DNA of 64,000 nucleotides. Source: Spirochaetaceae bacterium (GTDB lineage: Bacteria; Spirochaetota; Spirochaetia; Treponematales; Breznakiellaceae). The position numbers were made by a program, and so were the translations under genes. The notes under the pieces were generated by a model. The model ran no database searches, was not told the DNA's origin, and saw only the letters and a program-made list of their open reading frames with translations. Positions 215 to 60,495 of the stretch are shown one piece after another. Location: contig JAITKV010000048.1 of NCBI GenBank assembly GCA_031278215.1, positions 1 through 64,000 of the forward strand, read 5' to 3'. Each line of letters begins with the position of its first letter. Position 1 is the first letter of the stretch.

Positions 215-545
215 ATGTGGGAAATATATGCGACAGATGAGTATTTAGAATGGTTTTCTCTATTGTCAGAACATGACAAAGAAGTCATTCTTATAAAGAT
301 TCATTTATTGGTTGAATTTGGACCAGGATTATCAAGGCCTTATGCCGATACATTACACGGTTCAAAAATAAGTAATATGAAAGAATTAAGGGCAAGAACA
401 AATGAACATAATTATAGGATAACATATTATTTTAACAACAAACGCCGGGAATATTATTGAATGGAGGAGATAAAAATGGTAAGGATAAAAAACTGTTTTA
501 CAGGGATTTAATTAGAAAGGCAGAAAATCTTGTATAAAAATATAA
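215..545 (+). pseudogene. HigB/RelE-like toxin, apparently frameshifted
   Basis: ORF 215-460 reads ...LVEFGPGLSRPYADTLHGSKISNMKELRARTNEHNYRITYYFNNKRR (HigB-like phage Gp49 family); the expected C-terminus ILLNGGDKNGKDKKLFYRDLIRKAENL continues in another frame from ~452, then YKNIK in a third frame. Confidence 0.6.
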
Positions 546-722: not shown

Positions 723-842
723 ATCATTTAATTCATACAGTTCTTCCGGAGAATTTATTTCATCAGTATATTTTTGTATCTTCCCAATATATTCCAATAT
801 GTTTAATAAGTACATTAAATCATTTTTTATATTAGCTAACAT
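722..842 (-). pseudogene. HepT/DUF86 (HEPN) N-terminal fragment
   Basis: MLANIKNDLMYLLNILEYIGKIQKYTDEINSPEELYELND resembles the N-terminus of DUF86/HepT proteins; overlaps the mntA-like stop codon; truncated at the junction with the HigA fragment. Confidence 0.6.
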
Positions 843-1155
843 ATTTCATATCCTTTTGTGCCCTATGCAAAATTATTGGGTTCGCATATTTTTTTATCAT
901 TATATCTACGGATTTCTGGGATATTTTTTCAAGATCATTTTTTAACGCGATTAATTTTTTTAAATCATATGTTTCTAAATCTATATAAAAATCTATATCA
1001 TTTGCTGTTTCACCTCGTGCAAAAGAACCAAAAATTCCGATCTTTTCAAGTTTATATTTTTCGAGAATATTTTCGTTTTTTATTGCCTTTTCCAAGGCTT
1101 CAAATGTTTCTACACTCATATTTTGTATTTTACACCATATTTTTAATTTTTCCAA
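832..1155 (-). CDS. MntA-like minimal nucleotidyltransferase antitoxin
   Basis: IGIFGSFARGETANDIDFYIDLE matches the GSxxxG...DxDxxxD MNT nucleotidyltransferase motif. Confidence 0.75.
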   Translation of the reverse strand: MEKLKIWCKIQNMSVETFEALEKAIKNENILEKYKLEKIGIFGSFARGETANDIDFYIDLETYDLKKLIALKNDLEKISQKSVDIMIKKYANPIILHRAQKDMKYVS

Positions 1156-1425: not shown

Positions 1426-1968
1426 CTATTTCCTTTTTAACTGCATGGAGCTTTCTCCCTCGGGTGTAAGCGTTAACGTTAAGCCGGATACCTTGTATTC
1501 AAGCTCGCCAAAGTCAATAATAAACAATTTATTTTTATCTGCCGCCCATTTGAAATCTTCTCCATCCACATTGCCTCTCCCGTCTTTAGCAAGTTCTAAA
1601 TTTTCAAAGAACCCTTCTTCTGTGGGAACCCATTCGCCGACCAGTACCGATGGCCCACCCGGTTTCAAACAAACGTACGTTTCACCATCTTCACCGGTTA
1701 AAGTAAGTTTTGAATCTGCCAGTTGGTAATCAAACGACATCGCCACCTGAGGAGTGCTAATATATAGACGATTTTTTTCAACCTTCCAGGTTATTGCACT
1801 TCCGTCTGCAATTCCGGTTCCGTCGTTTAAAAGCTCGGCGCTGTCGAAACCGCTTCCCTCTACCAACAACCATCTGCCAACCAATGCCGATCTCCCGCCG
1901 CCGCAGGAAGCTAAAAACAAGCCCAGTACCACCAGGCACGTCAACAAAACAGATATTCTTCTTTTCAT
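1426..1968 (-). CDS. Lipoprotein with two tandem repeat domains
   Basis: Start at MKRRISVLLTCLVVLGLFLASC (lipobox LASC); two similar halves LVGRWLLVEGSGFDSAELLNDG... and LVGEWVPTEEGFFENLELAKDG.... Confidence 0.75.
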   Translation of the reverse strand: MKRRISVLLTCLVVLGLFLASCGGGRSALVGRWLLVEGSGFDSAELLNDGTGIADGSAITWKVEKNRLYISTPQVAMSFDYQLADSKLTLTGEDGETYVCLKPGGPSVLVGEWVPTEEGFFENLELAKDGRGNVDGEDFKWAADKNKLFIIDFGELEYKVSGLTLTLTPEGESSMQLKRK

Positions 1969-2121
1969 TTCACAAGGCCATCCCTTTAAAGTATTTATGG
2001 AACATATATTCCATGTTCCCAATATAGTATCGGTATGCTTTTTATTTGTCAATATGGAGGCTTTCCCAAAACTTCAGTAAAAACCGCATTTTCGCAGCCC
2101 GTAGGCGAGACAATGTAGCGT

Positions 2122-2175: not shown

Positions 2176-2283
2176 TATTCCCTGACAATTTCAAATTGTC
2201 AGGGAAATCCGATTGTAATTGTTTGTCAGGCAAAGAATTAGCTAATTCCTTGCCTGACAAACCAAAATCTATTGTGTATAAAA
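2176..2283. repeat. Dispersed two-palindrome repeat, copy 1
   Basis: TATTCCCTGACAATTTCAAATTGTCAGGG...TTTGTCAGGCAAAGAATTAGCTAATTCCTTGCCTGACAAACCAAAATCTATTGTGTATAAAA; aligned without gaps to 59114-59221. Confidence 0.9.
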
Positions 2284-2723: not shown

Positions 2724-3593
2724 TTAAACTTTTACCCGCCCTTTAATAAAAGTTGACAAAAGTTCGATCCCCAGGGCAAAGACAAAGACGATCAATACCG
2801 CCAGTCCCGCCCGGCCAAAATGATATGCGTTCATGGCGGCCATGATGGTGTATCCCACTCCGCCGGCTCCCACCATGCCAAGGATTGCCGCCTCCTGGTA
2901 ATTGGTTTCAAAGCGCAGGGCCGTCCAGACGATGATTCCGGAAAGGGAAGAGGGAAGAACCGCGGCGAAAAAAACCTGCGCCCGGTTTGCCCCGGCGGCT
3001 CGAACCGCCTCGATAGCCTCGTCGGGGACCTCCTCAAAAAGCTGGGCAAAGACCATGCCAAAAAACGCGGTGGCATGAAAACCCAAACCCATGATACCCG
3101 AAGCCATGCCAAAACCCATAGAGGCCAGCACCAAAAGCACCCACACCGGCGTGGGTACCGCCCGGATAAAGGCGAGGAAACTTTTGATAAGGGGGGACAA
3201 GGGCTTCCAGGGGCTAATGTTCTCCGCCGCCAAAGCCCCCAGGAAAAGGCCAAAAACCAGACTGTAGATCAAGGCCAGCGCGGCTACGGTAACGGTTTCT
3301 GTAAAAGTTAACAGGGTAAGAGAAAAGCGTTCGGTGGAAAGATGGGCCATATCGAGAAACACCTTTCCCAGCCGGGGAAAACGCTGGAAGAGCTTATGCC
3401 AATCCGCGTTCAGCAGGGCCAGGGACGCCGCCGTTAAGATTCCAAAGAAAATTAAAAATACATAAACCGGCATATCCCGTTTTAAATTTCCTACGGGAAT
3501 TCTCGGCGGCTTGATATTTTGCCCATACCGTGCCTGGATTAGACTCTGTTCCAGCATCAAATTAAAATTATGGCCTTCAAAGAACATGATCAC
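2724..3593 (-). CDS. phnE: Phosphonate-type ABC transporter permease PhnE (second)
   Basis: PhnE-like permease: RAVPTPVWVLLVLASMGFGMASGIMGLGFHATAFFGMVFAQLFEEVPDEAIEAVRAAGA...AAILGMVGAGGVGYTI; adjacent to phnC and phnD. Confidence 0.9.
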   Translation of the reverse strand: MIMFFEGHNFNLMLEQSLIQARYGQNIKPPRIPVGNLKRDMPVYVFLIFFGILTAASLALLNADWHKLFQRFPRLGKVFLDMAHLSTERFSLTLLTFTETVTVAALALIYSLVFGLFLGALAAENISPWKPLSPLIKSFLAFIRAVPTPVWVLLVLASMGFGMASGIMGLGFHATAFFGMVFAQLFEEVPDEAIEAVRAAGANRAQVFFAAVLPSSLSGIIVWTALRFETNYQEAAILGMVGAGGVGYTIMAAMNAYHFGRAGLAVLIVFVFALGIELLSTFIKGRVKV

Positions 3594-9941: not shown

Positions 9942-9988
9942 GGGGCCGTCCGGAAAGTAACAAACTTCCCGGGCGGCCCCTGTTTTTT
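9942..9988 (+). terminator. Rho-independent terminator after pstS
   Basis: GGGGCCGTCCGGAAAGTAACAAACTTCCCGGGCGGCCCC followed by TGTTTTTT. Confidence 0.8.
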
Positions 9989-14906: not shown

Positions 14907-14952
14907 CGAGGAATGTCCGGAAAGTAACAAACTTTAAGGACATCCCCCCTCG
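14907..14952. repeat. Intergenic stem-loop sharing a 20-mer with the pstS terminator
   Basis: CGAGG.ATGTCCGGAAAGTAACAAACTTTAAGGACAT...CCTCG; GTCCGGAAAGTAACAAACTT identical to 9948-9967. Confidence 0.7.
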
Positions 14953-49880: not shown

Positions 49881-52800
49881 TTAGCCGCCTTCTTCCTGTT
49901 GTACCGGAGGCGGCGCAGCCTCCTGCGGGGGCGCAGCTTCCGGGGACGGCGCAACATCCGGCGGAGGCGGCGCAGCGTCCGGCGGGGACATGGCCTCCGG
50001 GGGCGGCGCAGCGTCCGGCGGCGCAGCCTCCTGCGGGGGCGGGGCCTCCGGGGACGGCGCAACGTCCGGGGACGGCGCAGCTTCCTCCGGGGGCGGGGCT
50101 TCCGGGGGCGGCGCAGCGTCCGGCGGCGCAGCTTCCGGGGGTGGCGCAACGTCTGGGGGTGGCGCAACGTCCGGGGACGGCGCAGCTTCCGGGGGCGGCG
50201 TAGCGTCCGGCAGGGACATGGCCTCCGGGGGCGGCGCAACATCCGGCGGGGGCGGCGCAGCTTCCTGCGGGGACATGGCCTCCGGGGGCGGCGCAGCGTC
50301 CGGCGGGGACGGCGCAGCTTCCTGCGGGGGCGGGGCTTCCGGGGGCGGCGCTTCCGGCGGGGACGGCGCAACATCCGGCGGGGGCGGGGCTTCCGGGGGC
50401 GGCGCAGCTTCCTGCGGCGCAGCTTCCGGGGGTGGCGCAACATCCGGCGGGGGCGGCGCAGCGTCCGGCGGGGGCGGGGCTTCCGGGGGCGGCGCAACAT
50501 CCGGCGGCGGGGCAACTGTGGACGCGGGGCTTTTCTTTTTTTTCTTCCCCTTCAAATTTTTAGCCGCCCAGGCGCTTAAGATGGTTTTAAGTCCCTGGTC
50601 GGTAAGTTTTAAGGTCTTCCCGCAATCCGGACAGGTAAGGCGGCCCGACTCGTCCAGGGCTTCCTTGCGGCAGCCAACGCAGTAGGTTTTGCCGCAATCC
50701 GGGCAGGTTCCGGCGGGCATGTCGTCCGGGGGCATGGCATAGAGCCGCAGGGGGGGCGACGGCGGAGGATTCCGTTCCACCATCCATTCTCTCCCACAAG
50801 AGGCGCAGTGTATGGTACGGTACAGGGCTTCTTCCATCCACGCTTCAAGCTGATCCCGGCCCGCGGCGGCTTCTTCGCCAAGGTCCAATTCATCCAGATG
50901 GATTAGAATTGTCTTTACCTCGTCCCAGCGGCGGCCAAAGGCATAGGTCCAACCCAGCTGAAGCAGGGACGGAACATGATCGGGATCAATGCTTAGGGCC
51001 GCCCGGACGGCGGCTTCGGCTCGTGTATACTCCCCCTTTTTAACCGCGACAAACGCAATTAGTTCCAGCATCTCGGGGTTTGATTCGGGAGAAAAATCGC
51101 GGTCCCCCGCGGTAAGTACCAGGTCCGCTTCGCCGTACCGGCCCAACTCGATTAAACAAGAGGCCCTGTTATAGCGGTACTGCAGGTTGCCGGGGGCCGC
51201 CGCAAGGGCCCGGCGGTAATACGGATCCGCTTCTTCAAAACGGCGGGAACGGACCAAAAGATTCCCGGCGCAGTTCGCCAGGATCCCTTCGGGATCTTCT
51301 TTCGGGGTCGATTCCAATACTTTTAAGGCCCGGTCTTCATGGTTCTTCAGGTAGAGCGAAACCGCCCGGTTTACCCGGACCGCGGGGACCTCTCCCAGGA
51401 TAGCGGCGGCGGTGTCAAGATACGCGGCGGCCTTATCCACGTCGCCCCGGCTTAGGGCCACATGGGCGGCAAAATTGCGGATCCATCCAAAGGTTTCCGG
51501 ATCATCGTCTTCTTTAAACGCCAAAATTGTTTCCAGTTCCGGCTCCAGGGCGGGGTCCCCGGGATCCTGACTAAGAAGAAAGCGGTTTTCCAGCAGCCGG
51601 AAACGGAAGAGGGGATAGTCCGGGGCGTACTTTACCGCCCGTTCCAGCAGGGGCAGCGCCTCTTTGCGTTTTCCGTCCCGGATTAAAAGGAGCCCTTGAA
51701 GAAAATACAGCGCCGGATCCGGCGTTCCCCGCTTTTCTTTGCGGAGTTCCTCGGCCTGCGCCAGTTTTTCCCCGGCGCTTTTCCAATCTTCTATGCCAAA
51801 GGCCCATTTGCCGGTAAGGGCGCAGGCTTCCCAGTCGGATTCACCCAGAAGGCGGAACTTTGGAACCAGGAGCCCCAATTCTTCGTACCGGGTATCGGCC
51901 AAAAAAATCCGGCCCGCCTTAAGGTAGCGGTTTAGAGCCTTGCCGGTCTCTCCCAAAAGCTCATAGACCGCGGCGGCGTTTTTTGCAGTTAGGCCGTTCT
52001 TGTCGTCAAGGTCAAAGGCCCTGTCGTAGACCGCCGCGGCTTTCCGGTATTCCCCGGTGTTAAAGTACCCGTGACCCAGCAGATTAAGCAGCGCCGGAGG
52101 ATCGGCGAAGGTTCCGTAAAGAACGGCATCGTTACCGGTTCCGCCGGCCATATCGCCGCACAGTTCCTCCAGCCACCGGATCAGGTCCCGGTACCGCCCC
52201 CGGGAATACAGGAAGGCCGCTTTCATACTGTGCCCTTCCCGGATCTGTTCCTCGCCCGCCTCTTTCGTGGCAAGGAGGGTCTCGATATACTCTTCCACTT
52301 CGTCCCACAATTCCAGGGCCATGGCAAGTTTTATTCCCAGCAGCAGTTCCCGGGGTTTTTTGAACGCCGGCTCCGCATCCCCGGAATACAGGGCCGCCAG
52401 CATTACCGCGTCCTTTGCCCCGGCCAGTTCGGCGGACAAGGCCTGCGCCAGGGCCTCCCGCCCTTCCCAAGCCTTCCGGAGTTGTACCAATGCGGGGTTT
52501 ACCTGTCCCAGGGCGGTAAAAGTTTCTGCCAGCCGGATGCGGTTTCCGGGGGCCGCGGAATTTTCCAGGGTACTGTAACGCCTTCCCGTTTCCCCGATCC
52601 GGGAATCAAGGCTAAACGAAAGAAGCTCCGCGTGGGCGGTAAAATCCCGGGAAACAGCCGGGACCGTGCCGTCCTCCGGGAGACCGGGTTCCGATTCGGA
52701 GTTTTGCTCTTCATAACTGGCGCCGGCAAAGCCAATGCGCCCTTCGGAAATGGAAGCATCGTTCCAGCTTCCCGCCCATTGTCCGTTAACCGCCACAAGG

Positions 52801-56157: not shown

Positions 56158-57648
56158 ATGCTTATAATTATTGTCGGCGCCGGACTTGTGGGAACTCAGC
56201 TGGCCCGTCAACTAACCGAAGAAAAACACGATATCGCCATTATCGAAGCAAATGAAGAACGGGCCCGGCACGTGTCGAACCAGCTTGACTGCATGGTGCT
56301 TCACGATGAAGGAAATTCCATCAACGCCCTGGAAGAAGCGGGAATTGCCAAGGCCAACGCCCTGGTCTGCGTAACCGATTCCGACGAAGTAAACATGATT
56401 ATCTGCGGCCTGGCTTCGCGGTATACCGGACTGCTTAAGATTGCCCGGGTGCGAAACGACGAATACGTGCGCAGAAATTTCCAAAACCAGATAGGGGGAG
56501 GAAAATCTGCCGCCATGGGGATAGATTTTTTTATCCACCCCGATGTGGAGGCCGCCCGGTCCGCTCTGGACGCGATTGAACACGGAGCCCTGGGGAACAT
56601 TCTTTCCTTTGCCGGAACCCCCTATGAGCTGGGAACCATTGATGTACTGGAAGCCTCTCCCTTTGACGGGCTTGTTCTAAAGGATTCTCGTACCCTTATC
56701 GACGGGGAATTTCTTGTAACCCTGGTGGAACGCCAGGGAAGCTGCATGCTCCCCACGGGGGCCACCAGGCTTCAGTCCGGGGACCGGATATACTTTCTTG
56801 CCAAAACCGATGATCTTACCAAGGGCTTTAAACTGGCGGGATGGCCGGAAAAACCGATCCGCAAGATAGGCATTGTAGGAGGCGGACGCCTGGGATCGCT
56901 GATTGCCGGCGGCCTTTTAAATAAAGAAAAGTACAGACCCGCCGAAATGACGCGGGATTTTAACGAACCCCGGGATCCGGCAGAGATGGTCCGGGGAAAA
57001 AATTCCCGGGGATTTTTTTCGTTCTTACACGCCCTGGTTCCCCGGCACCTTAAAAGGGTGATCATGGTAGAACAGGATTACGGCCTTTGTAAAGAATTGG
57101 CCGCAAAATTTCCGGAGGCGCTGATCCTTAACGAAGATATTTCTGACGAAAGTTTTATTACCGAAGAACGGATTGACGATTTAGATCTTATTGTTACCGC
57201 CACGGTCCACCAGGAACTTAATATTGTAACCGCGGTATACCTTAAATCCCGGGGAGTGGCCCGGGCGGTGGCCATGGTAAGCAGCACCGGATACGCCGCC
57301 ATAGCCCGGAAGCTTGGGGTAGATGTGGTAATTCCCATGAAGTCCGTGGTGGTTGATTCTATTCTGTCAAAGCTTATGGGGGGCGGTGTAAGGGGGGTAC
57401 ACCGGATAGGGGACGGGACCGTGAACATCCTCGAAATAGACATTAAGGCCGGTTCCCAGGCGGAAGGACAAGCGCTTAAGGATTTCCATTTACCCGCCGG
57501 CGCGCTGGTAATGCTGGTAAACCGGGAAACGGAAGACGATCTTATTCCCCGGGGGGACTATGTGTATACCCCAGGACACCGGATCCTGCTTATTGTCAAA
57601 AACGGAACCGAAATGGACATTGAAAAGATCTTTGGATCCCCCAAATGA
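56158..57648 (+). CDS. trkA: Trk potassium uptake regulator TrkA
   Basis: Two RCK_N/RCK_C halves: IIVGAGLVGTQLARQLTEEKHDIAIIE... and IGIVGGGRLGSLIA.... Confidence 0.93.
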   Translation: MLIIIVGAGLVGTQLARQLTEEKHDIAIIEANEERARHVSNQLDCMVLHDEGNSINALEEAGIAKANALVCVTDSDEVNMIICGLASRYTGLLKIARVRNDEYVRRNFQNQIGGGKSAAMGIDFFIHPDVEAARSALDAIEHGALGNILSFAGTPYELGTIDVLEASPFDGLVLKDSRTLIDGEFLVTLVERQGSCMLPTGATRLQSGDRIYFLAKTDDLTKGFKLAGWPEKPIRKIGIVGGGRLGSLIAGGLLNKEKYRPAEMTRDFNEPRDPAEMVRGKNSRGFFSFLHALVPRHLKRVIMVEQDYGLCKELAAKFPEALILNEDISDESFITEERIDDLDLIVTATVHQELNIVTAVYLKSRGVARAVAMVSSTGYAAIARKLGVDVVIPMKSVVVDSILSKLMGGGVRGVHRIGDGTVNILEIDIKAGSQAEGQALKDFHLPAGALVMLVNRETEDDLIPRGDYVYTPGHRILLIVKNGTEMDIEKIFGSPK

Positions 57649-59105
57649 AAAAACTGGTTATATGCCGTCTATTGATGCTTCTAGAGGTCCTGGCGGCCCT
57701 GTCCATGGGGGCGCCCCTGTCCATGGCCATATTTTACGGAGAAGCCGCCATGGCAAAATCCTTTGGCCTTACTATGGCGGCGGTGCTGCTTTTAACCATG
57801 CCGGTCCTTATCGCCACCCGGAAGCAGCCCATACGCTTTGCCGCTTCCGACGGCTTTTTGCTGGTATTCCTTGCCTGGGTGGGAACATGCCTGCTTGGGG
57901 CCATTCCCTATTATATATCGGGACACATCCCCGGACTGGCGGACGCGGTGTATGAAAGCGTTTCTGGGTTTACGACCACCGGGGCATCGATCATACAGGA
58001 TCTGGAAAGCATGCCCCGGTCGTTGATCTTCTGGCGGGCCCAGACCCATTGGCTTGGGGGCATGGGAATGGTGGTTCTTACGGTGGCCCTGCTTCCGCTT
58101 TTGGGAGTGGGAGGGTTCCAGCTTCTTAAGGCGGAAACCACCGGGCCCGACAAGGATCGGATAACCCCCAAGATAACCGAAACGGCAAAAATTCTTTGGC
58201 TCATATATATTATCCTTACCGCGGCGGAAACCCTGCTGCTTATGTTGGCGGGAATGGATTTATTTGATGCGGTGGTGCATGCCTTTTCCACCATGGCCAC
58301 CGGAGGCTTTAGCTCCCGGAACAACAGTATTGCCTATTATAATTCACCCCTCATCGAATGGATTATCATTATCTTTATGATCATCGCAGGATGCAACTTT
58401 TCCATGCTATACCGGCTGCTCCAAAGAAAATTTCGGGAAGTGTACTACAATAGCGAAATACGGGGGTATGTTCTTATCATCTTTGCCGCGGCGGCCGTTA
58501 TTGCCTTTTCTTTAATTTCAAACAGCCGCTTAGAAGAAGAAAACCTTTCCCCGGGTACCGGCATACGGCGGGCGTTTTTTTACACCGCCTCCATACTAAC
58601 CACCACGGGCTTTTCCGCCGCCGCCCATAATTTGTGGCCCCCCCTGGCTCAAGGGATATTGGTTATCCTGATGTTTATCGGCGGCTGTTCCGGTTCCACC
58701 GCGGGCGGCGTCAAGGTAATACGGTATGTGGTTCTTTTTAAACAGTCAAAAAACGAATTAAAAAAGATCATCTACCCCAGGGGGGTGTTTTCGGTCCGGC
58801 TTAACAACAAGGTGGGCCGCAAAGACGTGGTCTACGGCGTGGCAGGATTTATCTTTTTATACCTTAGTATGATAGCCCTGGGGTCCCTGGTGGCCGCCGG
58901 CGCCGGCGTGGATTTTTTTTCATCCCTTAATCTTTCCCTGCTTAGCCTTGGCAACATAGGGCTGGGTCTAGGCAGCCTGGAATCCCCCGCGGTTTTTCAA
59001 GCCCTTCCCGCTTATGTAAAATGGTTCTTTTCTTTTCTTATGATCGCCGGCAGGCTGGAACTGTGGGCGGCCTTTGTGTTCCTGTCCACCGATTATTGGC
59101 GTTAG
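57645..59105 (+). CDS. trkH: Trk potassium transporter subunit TrkH
   Basis: Filter-like ESVSGFTTTGASI, AFSTMATGGFS, LTTTGFSAA, GGCSGSTAGGVKVIR. Confidence 0.94.
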   Translation: MKKLVICRLLMLLEVLAALSMGAPLSMAIFYGEAAMAKSFGLTMAAVLLLTMPVLIATRKQPIRFAASDGFLLVFLAWVGTCLLGAIPYYISGHIPGLADAVYESVSGFTTTGASIIQDLESMPRSLIFWRAQTHWLGGMGMVVLTVALLPLLGVGGFQLLKAETTGPDKDRITPKITETAKILWLIYIILTAAETLLLMLAGMDLFDAVVHAFSTMATGGFSSRNNSIAYYNSPLIEWIIIIFMIIAGCNFSMLYRLLQRKFREVYYNSEIRGYVLIIFAAAAVIAFSLISNSRLEEENLSPGTGIRRAFFYTASILTTTGFSAAAHNLWPPLAQGILVILMFIGGCSGSTAGGVKVIRYVVLFKQSKNELKKIIYPRGVFSVRLNNKVGRKDVVYGVAGFIFLYLSMIALGSLVAAGAGVDFFSSLNLSLLSLGNIGLGLGSLESPAVFQALPAYVKWFFSFLMIAGRLELWAAFVFLSTDYWR

Positions 59106-59113
59106 GCGGATAT

Positions 59114-59221
59114 TATTCCCTGACAATTTAAAATTGTCAGGGCGCTCCGATTGTAATTGCTTGTTAGGCAAAGAATTAGCTAACCCCTTGCCTGACAAAC
59201 CAAAATCTATTGTGTATAAAA
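59114..59221. repeat. Dispersed two-palindrome repeat, copy 2
   Basis: Gap-free match to 2176-2283 with roughly eight substitutions by eye. Confidence 0.9.
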
Positions 59222-59295: not shown

Positions 59296-60495
59296 TCAAC
59301 CCAAGCCGGCTTTACGGCGGGTGTAGACATCGTAGTACACCGCAAAGAGCAGAATCAAGGCCTTAACGACGTACTGGTAATGGGTTCCCAGGTTCATCAA
59401 GAACATACCGTTGTTGATTGCCGACATTACCAGTCCGCCCACAATAACCCCGATAATCGAACCAATGCCGCCGGAGGCAGAAACGCCGCCGATATAACAG
59501 GCCGCAATGGCGTCCATTTCAAACATATTGCCGGCCTGGGGAAGGGCGCTGTTCATATACCCGGTGGAAACCACCGCCGCCAGGCCGCTTAAACTGCCCA
59601 TGATGCAAAATACAACAAAGACAATAAATTCGGAGTTAATGCCGGAAAGCTTGGCCGACCGTGCATTGCCCCCCACCGCATAGATGTACCTTCCCAACAC
59701 CGTGTTGTTCATAATAAAATGGAAAACGCTTATGGTTATTCCCAGCACTATTGCAATAATGGGAAGGCCCCGGTAACTTGCAAACCGGTCCGCCAAAACT
59801 ATGGCAACAATGCTGATAATACCAAGCTTTAGCGCAAAGAACACAAAGGGGGAAACCTCAAAATTATTGGCAATTTTTTTCTGCCGGCTTAAAAATTCCG
59901 AAGCCCAATAAACCACAAGCAGAATCAGCACCATTACAAAGGCCGCAGGATACCGGCCAAAAGCGATGGGCTCCAGGTGCAGGAGCTCGTCCACGGTGCC
60001 GGTAGAAAAATACGAATACCCGTCGTCTATAAAGCTTACGGGGTTTACGTCCGTCACAATATAGGTAAGGCCTCGAAATAACATCATCCCCGCCAAGGTA
60101 ACGATAAAGGCCGGTATTTTGGGATACGCAATAAACCATCCCTGGAAGGCCCCTATCCCAAGGCCCATCAGTAAAGCGCTTACCACCGTCAAGGGCATTC
60201 CTATTCCGGTGTTGTAAACAAAAGCGCTTAGGGCCCCCACAAAGGCGCAGACGGAACCTACGGAAAGGTCAATGCCCAAAATAATAATACATTGGACCAT
60301 CCCCGTGGCCAGGATAAGCACATAACTGTATTGGAAAAAAATGTTGGTAATATTCCGGCCGCTAAAATTTCGCCAGTTCGCCAGGGGGCCAAAGATCAAC
60401 ATAATAAGCCCCAGCATAATAAACATCGAATAATTCCGTATGTTATTTCTGATCAGCGTTCGAGAATTAACCGTATGAATAACTTTGCCGCTCAT
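59296..60495 (-). CDS. Sugar ABC transporter permease (GguB/XylH-like)
   Basis: BPD_transp_2-type permease: DLSVGSVCAFVGALSAFV, AACYIGGVSASGGIGSIIGVIVGGLVMSAINNGM. Confidence 0.9.
   Translation of the reverse strand: MSGKVIHTVNSRTLIRNNIRNYSMFIMLGLIMLIFGPLANWRNFSGRNITNIFFQYSYVLILATGMVQCIIILGIDLSVGSVCAFVGALSAFVYNTGIGMPLTVVSALLMGLGIGAFQGWFIAYPKIPAFIVTLAGMMLFRGLTYIVTDVNPVSFIDDGYSYFSTGTVDELLHLEPIAFGRYPAAFVMVLILLVVYWASEFLSRQKKIANNFEVSPFVFFALKLGIISIVAIVLADRFASYRGLPIIAIVLGITISVFHFIMNNTVLGRYIYAVGGNARSAKLSGINSEFIVFVVFCIMGSLSGLAAVVSTGYMNSALPQAGNMFEMDAIAACYIGGVSASGGIGSIIGVIVGGLVMSAINNGMFLMNLGTHYQYVVKALILLFAVYYDVYTRRKAGLG

Follow-up and report, generated by a model that had tools for sequence, protein, structure and literature searches.

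Among the described systems, the RUP element of pneumococcus is 107 bp long, has short inverted ends, duplicates a TA target, is present in about 100 intergenic copies and shows strong RNA folding, and its movement in trans by an IS630 transposase has been proposed (PMC2229807, PMC3049150). The Correia/NEMIS elements of Neisseria have TA termini, stem-loops, many intergenic copies and two length classes arising by internal deletion or insertion (PMC2229807). The GTAG/CGTC REPs and RAYT REPtrons are dispersed extragenic palindromes, and CGTC repeats have been reported in Spirochaetes (PMC3733652).

The dispersed repeat analysed here, from the genome of a Spirochaetaceae bacterium, resembles these three systems in the features listed and differs from each of them. 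Going by its published description, RUP has an insertion sequence with matching ends (IS630-Spn1), whereas none was found for the spirochaete element, which also has two large hairpins behind bipartite imperfect ends and entered one palindromic repeat repeatedly. Correia ends are 24-bp near-perfect inverted repeats, whereas the ends of the spirochaete element match at 17 of 29 positions, with a 5-bp tip motif and two separate internal hairpins. REPs are single hairpins of 20-40 bp with a GTAG or CGTC tag, the GTAG ones being tied to Y1 transposases, whereas the spirochaete element is ~101 bp long, has two hairpins and duplicates TA, and six of the seven carrier genomes searched lack a Y1 gene. 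Its short length (<200 bp), non-coding sequence, many copies, imperfect terminal inverted repeats and TA duplication at filled and empty sites make it very probable that the repeat is a MITE, i.e. a ~101-bp non-coding, non-autonomous DNA element that duplicates TA and is moved by a transposase encoded elsewhere.

The repeat was found in the window (the whole stretch of 64,000 nucleotides analysed) as an ungapped pair at 2176-2283 and 59114-59221, 108 nt each, with 93% identity and 8 substitutions, a likeness far beyond chance. A previous sequence-only reading had delimited this pair correctly to within 2-3 bp (Table 1) and had described two palindromes per copy, which are indeed present: the arms of palindrome 1 are 15 bp long in the family consensus, of which 12 bp pair perfectly in copy 1 (CCCTGACAATTT-C-AAATTGTCAGGG), and palindrome 2 of copy 1 (TTTGTCAGGCAAaGAATTAGCTAATTCcTTGCCTGACAAA) has one mismatched pair in 40 bp. 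The neighbours of copy 1 are a small putative lipoprotein-like gene (1426-2052, minus strand; called so by eye only) and an ABC permease gene (2724-3593, minus strand). A TrkH-type gene (57645-59105, plus strand) ends with its stop codon 8 bp before copy 2, and on the other side an ABC permease gene (59296-60495, minus strand) turns its 3' end towards the copy.

Table 1 Positions in the window of the two copies of the repeat and of the features of copy 1.
Feature	Position	Strand	Remarks
Probable MITE copy 1 with both flanking TA	2176..2280	+	element proper 2178-2278; covariance-model match C25:2176-2281, 130.8 bits
Hairpin/palindrome 1, copy 1	2177..2207	+	arms 2177-2191 / 2193-2207; outermost pair mismatched in copy 1
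Hairpin/palindrome 2, copy 1	2222..2261	+	40 bp, single mismatched pair
Left end, 29-bp imperfect terminal inverted repeat	2178..2206	+	17/29 in-register matches to the right end, other registers at most 11 (G000 consensus)
Right end, 29-bp imperfect terminal inverted repeat	2250..2278	-	same G000-consensus end comparison
Putative TA target duplication, left copy	2176..2177	.	deduced from the clean empty site at another copy and from nested sites
Putative TA target duplication, right copy	2279..2280	.	deduced from the clean empty site at another copy and from nested sites
Outward promoter-like pair, copy 1 right end	2254..2282	+	CTGACA 2254-2259, 17 nt, TATAAA 2277-2282; read from sequence
Probable MITE copy 2 with flanking TA	59114..59218	+	element proper 59116-59216

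Other repeats and small ORFs were also observed in the window. Positions 2109-2175, directly upstream of copy 1, are part of another dispersed repeat (GTCTGTCC..AAGCCGCAAACGTAGTTTGCGCACCGGCTTT.TGGACAG) that also adjoins the element at two further loci (L013, L019). Positions 9948-9980 and 14915-14947 hold a repeat (GTCCGGAAAGTAACAAACTT..., 82% alike), and a related sequence stands in for the left hairpin in two copies of the element (L126, L127). A tandem array with an 18-bp period, reported with 21 overlapping copies, occupies 49914-50545. A small ORF at 215-460 (plus strand) resembles a RelE/HigB-type toxin (by eye) and another at 832-1155 (minus strand) a minimal nucleotidyltransferase (Pfam Polbeta/NTP_transf_2); they are possibly parts of toxin-antitoxin pairs.

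Copy number, length classes and distribution

G000, the genome to which the window belongs (2.10 Mb in 62 contigs; completeness 80%), holds at least 62 distinct sites of the element, counted from the listed BLAST and covariance-model matches: BLAST was run with either length class, the best 40 sites being listed each time, and a covariance model built from 45 copies gave 64 matches, corresponding to 62 distinct sites. The copies in this genome lie in both orientations, with a mean pairwise identity of 90% and 99% for the best pair. With the same model, 17 of the 60 genomes searched from its family gave matches, the own genome included (1-64 matches each); the highest number outside the own genome was 26, in the same-genus genome G002. 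Relatives were absent from all 39 genomes searched from other families of the order. The search of the genome and of related spirochaetes proposed by the sequence-only reading yields many copies and a patchy distribution within the family. Those relatives that bear names are Treponema and Spirochaetaceae genomes assembled from metagenomes, and the isolate names of the carriers suggest termite-gut organisms. No similar DNA was found in the phage or plasmid collections, and an origin from either was rejected; a 17-base end pattern occurred in 14 viral contigs, by our own estimate about the number expected by chance at the size of the collection.

The element measures ~101 bp plus the duplicated TA, is flanked by TA on both sides and contains no gene (the ~100-aa ORFs crossing copies in the ORF lists continue into the flanking DNA). 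In a ~95-bp class the 11-bp centre of hairpin 2 is missing, and the copy at L045 (91 bp) lacks slightly more. An end-pattern search of the own genome found 34-bp forms at eight loci (TATTCCCTGACAAACCAAAATCTATTGTGTATAA or variants close to it), precisely the remnant expected of a deletion between the two CCTGACAA direct repeats, and several solo left palindromes (L093 and L097 among them). Variants of ~150 bp, with ~40 bp extra inside hairpin 2, were observed at L195 (G007:C132) and L196 (G049:C97), one of them with a further palindrome.

Ends, TA target and empty sites

When copies were aligned with their flanks, the sequence was constant from TA-TTCCC to GTGTA-TA and showed weak preferences only beyond; the outer ends read TA-TTCCCTGACAATTTG... 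and ...CAAAATCTATTGTGTA-TA. The left TA is preceded by T in 28 of 38 copies and the right TA followed by A in 34 of 42, a T-TA-A bias indicating a target of the roughly symmetric kind expected of DDE enzymes that duplicate TA. In-register matches between the 29-bp ends were 17 in G000, 18 in G018, 17 in G016, 16 in G002, 18 in G036, 14 in G007 and 13 in G001, slid registers giving at most 12 (13 once, in the AT-rich G036), and the shuffle p-value of the end match ranged from ~1e-4 (G000, G018, G016) to 0.02 (G001). The parts common to both ends are a tip T-W-N-Y-C (TTCCC on the left, TACAC on the right; the 5-bp tip motif) and an ATTTG-like core, and in the G000-type copies TTGTCAGG is equidistant from both ends. 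This layout is the anatomy of a putative transposase-recognised end, though an imperfect one.

Empty orthologous sites, which the sequence-only reading had suggested looking for, provided one fully clean case: the locus reads ACCGAT-TA-ATATAATACCATGG in G001, a genome of the same genus, versus ACCGGT-TA[TTCCC...GTGTA]TA-ATATAGTATCATGG in G000, with the TA duplicated. At three other aligned loci the relative lacks the element and carries other, unrelated sequence; the junction in G001 is blurred at one locus flanked by a tRNA, and at the locus of the TrkH copy G002 has unrelated sequence without the element after the TrkH gene, in a different gene order. The orthologous intergenic sites of relatives were also observed to hold unrelated short repeats, as if they were insertion hot spots.

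A second palindromic repeat in G000 is a repeated insertion target. Its empty copies (L081, L083) read ...GATTAAATGACGC... or the like, and its filled copies (L012, L020, L114, L118, L101) read ...GAT-TATTCCC...GTGTA-TAAATGRCGC... or the like, a difference indicating that TA was duplicated, and the presence of insertions at both arms and in both orientations argues for independent events. This family of ~40-bp palindromes (TAGGGAAACGCTGATTAAATGACGCYAATCAGCGTTTCCCTA) is a preferred insertion target of the element and may be a miniature TA element itself; its TA-flanked members occupy tens of sites in the own genome, among them L081:1501-1540, L083, L082 and L080. At L023, L107 and L128, copies of the element, some of them truncated, lie next to yet another palindromic repeat (GTTCGGAAACTGAGGTTTCCGAACAACTCTA or the like). 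Copy number, the clean empty site with its TA duplication, the nested insertions and the patchy family-wide distribution together support mobility, one of the two possibilities (mobile or selected) raised by the sequence-only reading.

Search for the mobilising enzyme

The element would be cut and pasted, or copied, into TA dinucleotides, preferentially in a T-TA-A context and with duplication of the TA, by a transposase acting in trans, most likely of the IS630/Tc1-mariner type, that would recognise the two imperfect ~29-bp ends. TA target duplication points to the IS630/Tc1-mariner class. By analogy with the pneumococcal RUP, an IS630/Tc1-mariner-type transposase in trans is the best inference; we claim a TA-DDE-like behaviour only, and not membership among the IS630/Tc1-mariner-derived elements.

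The IS630 DDE domain (PF13358) had no match in the carriers G000, G007, G018, G058 and G036 (the last a single contig), and had matches in 23 of the 60 family genomes. The ends of 30 IS630 loci fetched from elsewhere in the family were scanned for a parent element, and none had the ends of the repeat, the candidate being rejected at these loci; the closest approach to the right end, with 5 mismatches at L157, falls outside the transposase unit and has the look of a stray copy. Insertion sequences present in many copies are poorly assembled from metagenomes, and since G000 is in addition fragmented and incomplete, the absence of the domain from it is weak evidence. Its absence from the single-contig G036 is stronger, and suggests that the mobiliser was lost or is a different one there.

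Paired-arm changes, gene context and alternative readings

In the alignment of 45 sequences, 92% of the cells are paired in the two hairpins, and two-sided changes were found in 10 of the 31 base pairs (42 cells, against 11.8 expected from column shuffles in which relatedness is ignored); when the partner was slid by 1-3 columns, at most 10 two-sided cells remained. RNAalifold predicted a small third hairpin in the right tail, also with a two-sided change. In G036 the arm sequence is mostly different in most copies and both hairpins are kept, together with a TCCGATTGTAA-like linker and a GGAATTAG..AATTCC core. A-C mispairs outnumber G-T pairs (52 versus 19, the three outermost pairs of hairpin 1 being left out), and three copies (L007, L029, L045) are half-converted, with a GCAAGG left arm and a CCCGAC or CCTGAC right arm. 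Homogenisation of the arms of imperfect inverted repeats is an established mutational process (PMC7202029, PMC8604942). Because of this process, the excess of A-C over G-T and the half-converted copies, the covariation of the hairpins is not read as proof of a selected RNA.

It is about as likely as not that replication itself, through template switching (quasipalindrome correction) or arm-to-arm conversion, produced the paired-arm changes, and not selection on structure. The half-converted copies are the intermediates expected of such a process, which is established as noted above, and G-T intermediates are not in excess over A-C; the small third hairpin, changed on both sides (CAA...TTG to CCA...TGG) in some relatives, speaks against it, and with the present alignment it is inseparable from selection. 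Template switching concerns the covariation only and is compatible with the element being a MITE.

Mapped relative to genes, as the sequence-only reading had advised, the copies are mostly intergenic (crude ORF call), in both orientations and many within ~35 bp of a stop codon. These positions, together with the two-sided changes and with a promoter-like pair shortly before an ATG in one copy, would suit functional RNA or regulatory elements (processing hairpins, attenuators, terminators) selected at many 3' ends. We consider this improbable: copies point either way and also fall inside other repeats, same-genus genomes lack the element at orthologous places, a selected plus-strand RNA should show the reverse of the observed excess of A-C over G-T, and sites behind stop codons are also seen with tolerated mobile elements such as the pneumococcal RUP (PMC3049150). 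An intrinsic terminator was rejected, since there is no T run after the stem and the scan around copy 1 (1950-2750) returned 0 sites; with no U-tract after either hairpin and both orientations relative to genes, the earlier statement that the repeat is not a simple terminator holds. A known RNA family was likewise rejected, Rfam giving no match at the gathering score and only sub-threshold miRNA-type hairpin matches.

As for promoters, the right end of many copies reads CTGACA-17 nt-TATAA plus one flank base; in L045 this base is T, giving CTGACA-17-TATAAT (11 of 12 sigma-70 matches) just upstream of an ATG. The pair of copy 1 was omitted by the promoter scan of the window, which requires T at position 6. 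Correia elements have promoter sequences at their ends. A general promoter role is unlikely here, because the genes to the right mostly do not point away from the element.

Slightly less probable still is a palindromic element of the REP/BIME type, or one derived from IS200/IS605, which a Y1 (HUH) transposase or a RAYT would move in single-stranded form. Two strong hairpins whose arms co-change across genomes suit such an element, which would explain why structure was kept while sequence changed. However, Y1_Tnp (PF01797) had no match in six of the seven carrier genomes (G000, G001, G002, G007, G018, G058; one match in G036), on which grounds this candidate was rejected, the same profile matching in 5 of 14 control genomes; moreover, the consensus has neither a GTAG nor a CGTC tag at the hairpin foot, the left flank is no fixed tetra- or pentanucleotide, the two flanks look like a roughly symmetric TA target, and the ends are in-register inverted repeats. 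We give an equally small chance to the idea that hairpin structure, not sequence, is the conserved feature recognised in movement, by a structure-reading, TA-duplicating enzyme; it is suggested by G036, where the arms changed, the hairpins were kept and no IS630-type transposase was detected, and, if true, such an enzyme would be undescribed. An integron attC site was rejected by anatomy (two separate hairpins, dispersed copies, duplicated TA). Duplication of a larger block, which the sequence-only reading had named as fatal to its proposal, as it had a restriction of the repeat to the two copies, is suggested by their equal length and lack of gaps and is nevertheless virtually excluded: identity between them stops at the element boundaries, their flanks and genes differ, and the other sites in the own genome, at least 60, make the similarity that of a dispersed family.

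The MITE family appears to be an undescribed member of a known bacterial class, and in the literature searched we found no report of such a family for the spirochaete family of the termite-gut treponemes, to which it would add one. It would account for many of the short repeats that hamper the assembly and annotation of such genomes, and its filled and empty TA sites offer a concrete marker of recent insertion. Some copies may bring a promoter-like outward pair to a neighbouring gene, and the family lends itself to a test, set up by nature, of whether selection or template-switch repair lies behind the paired-arm changes of mobile palindromes.
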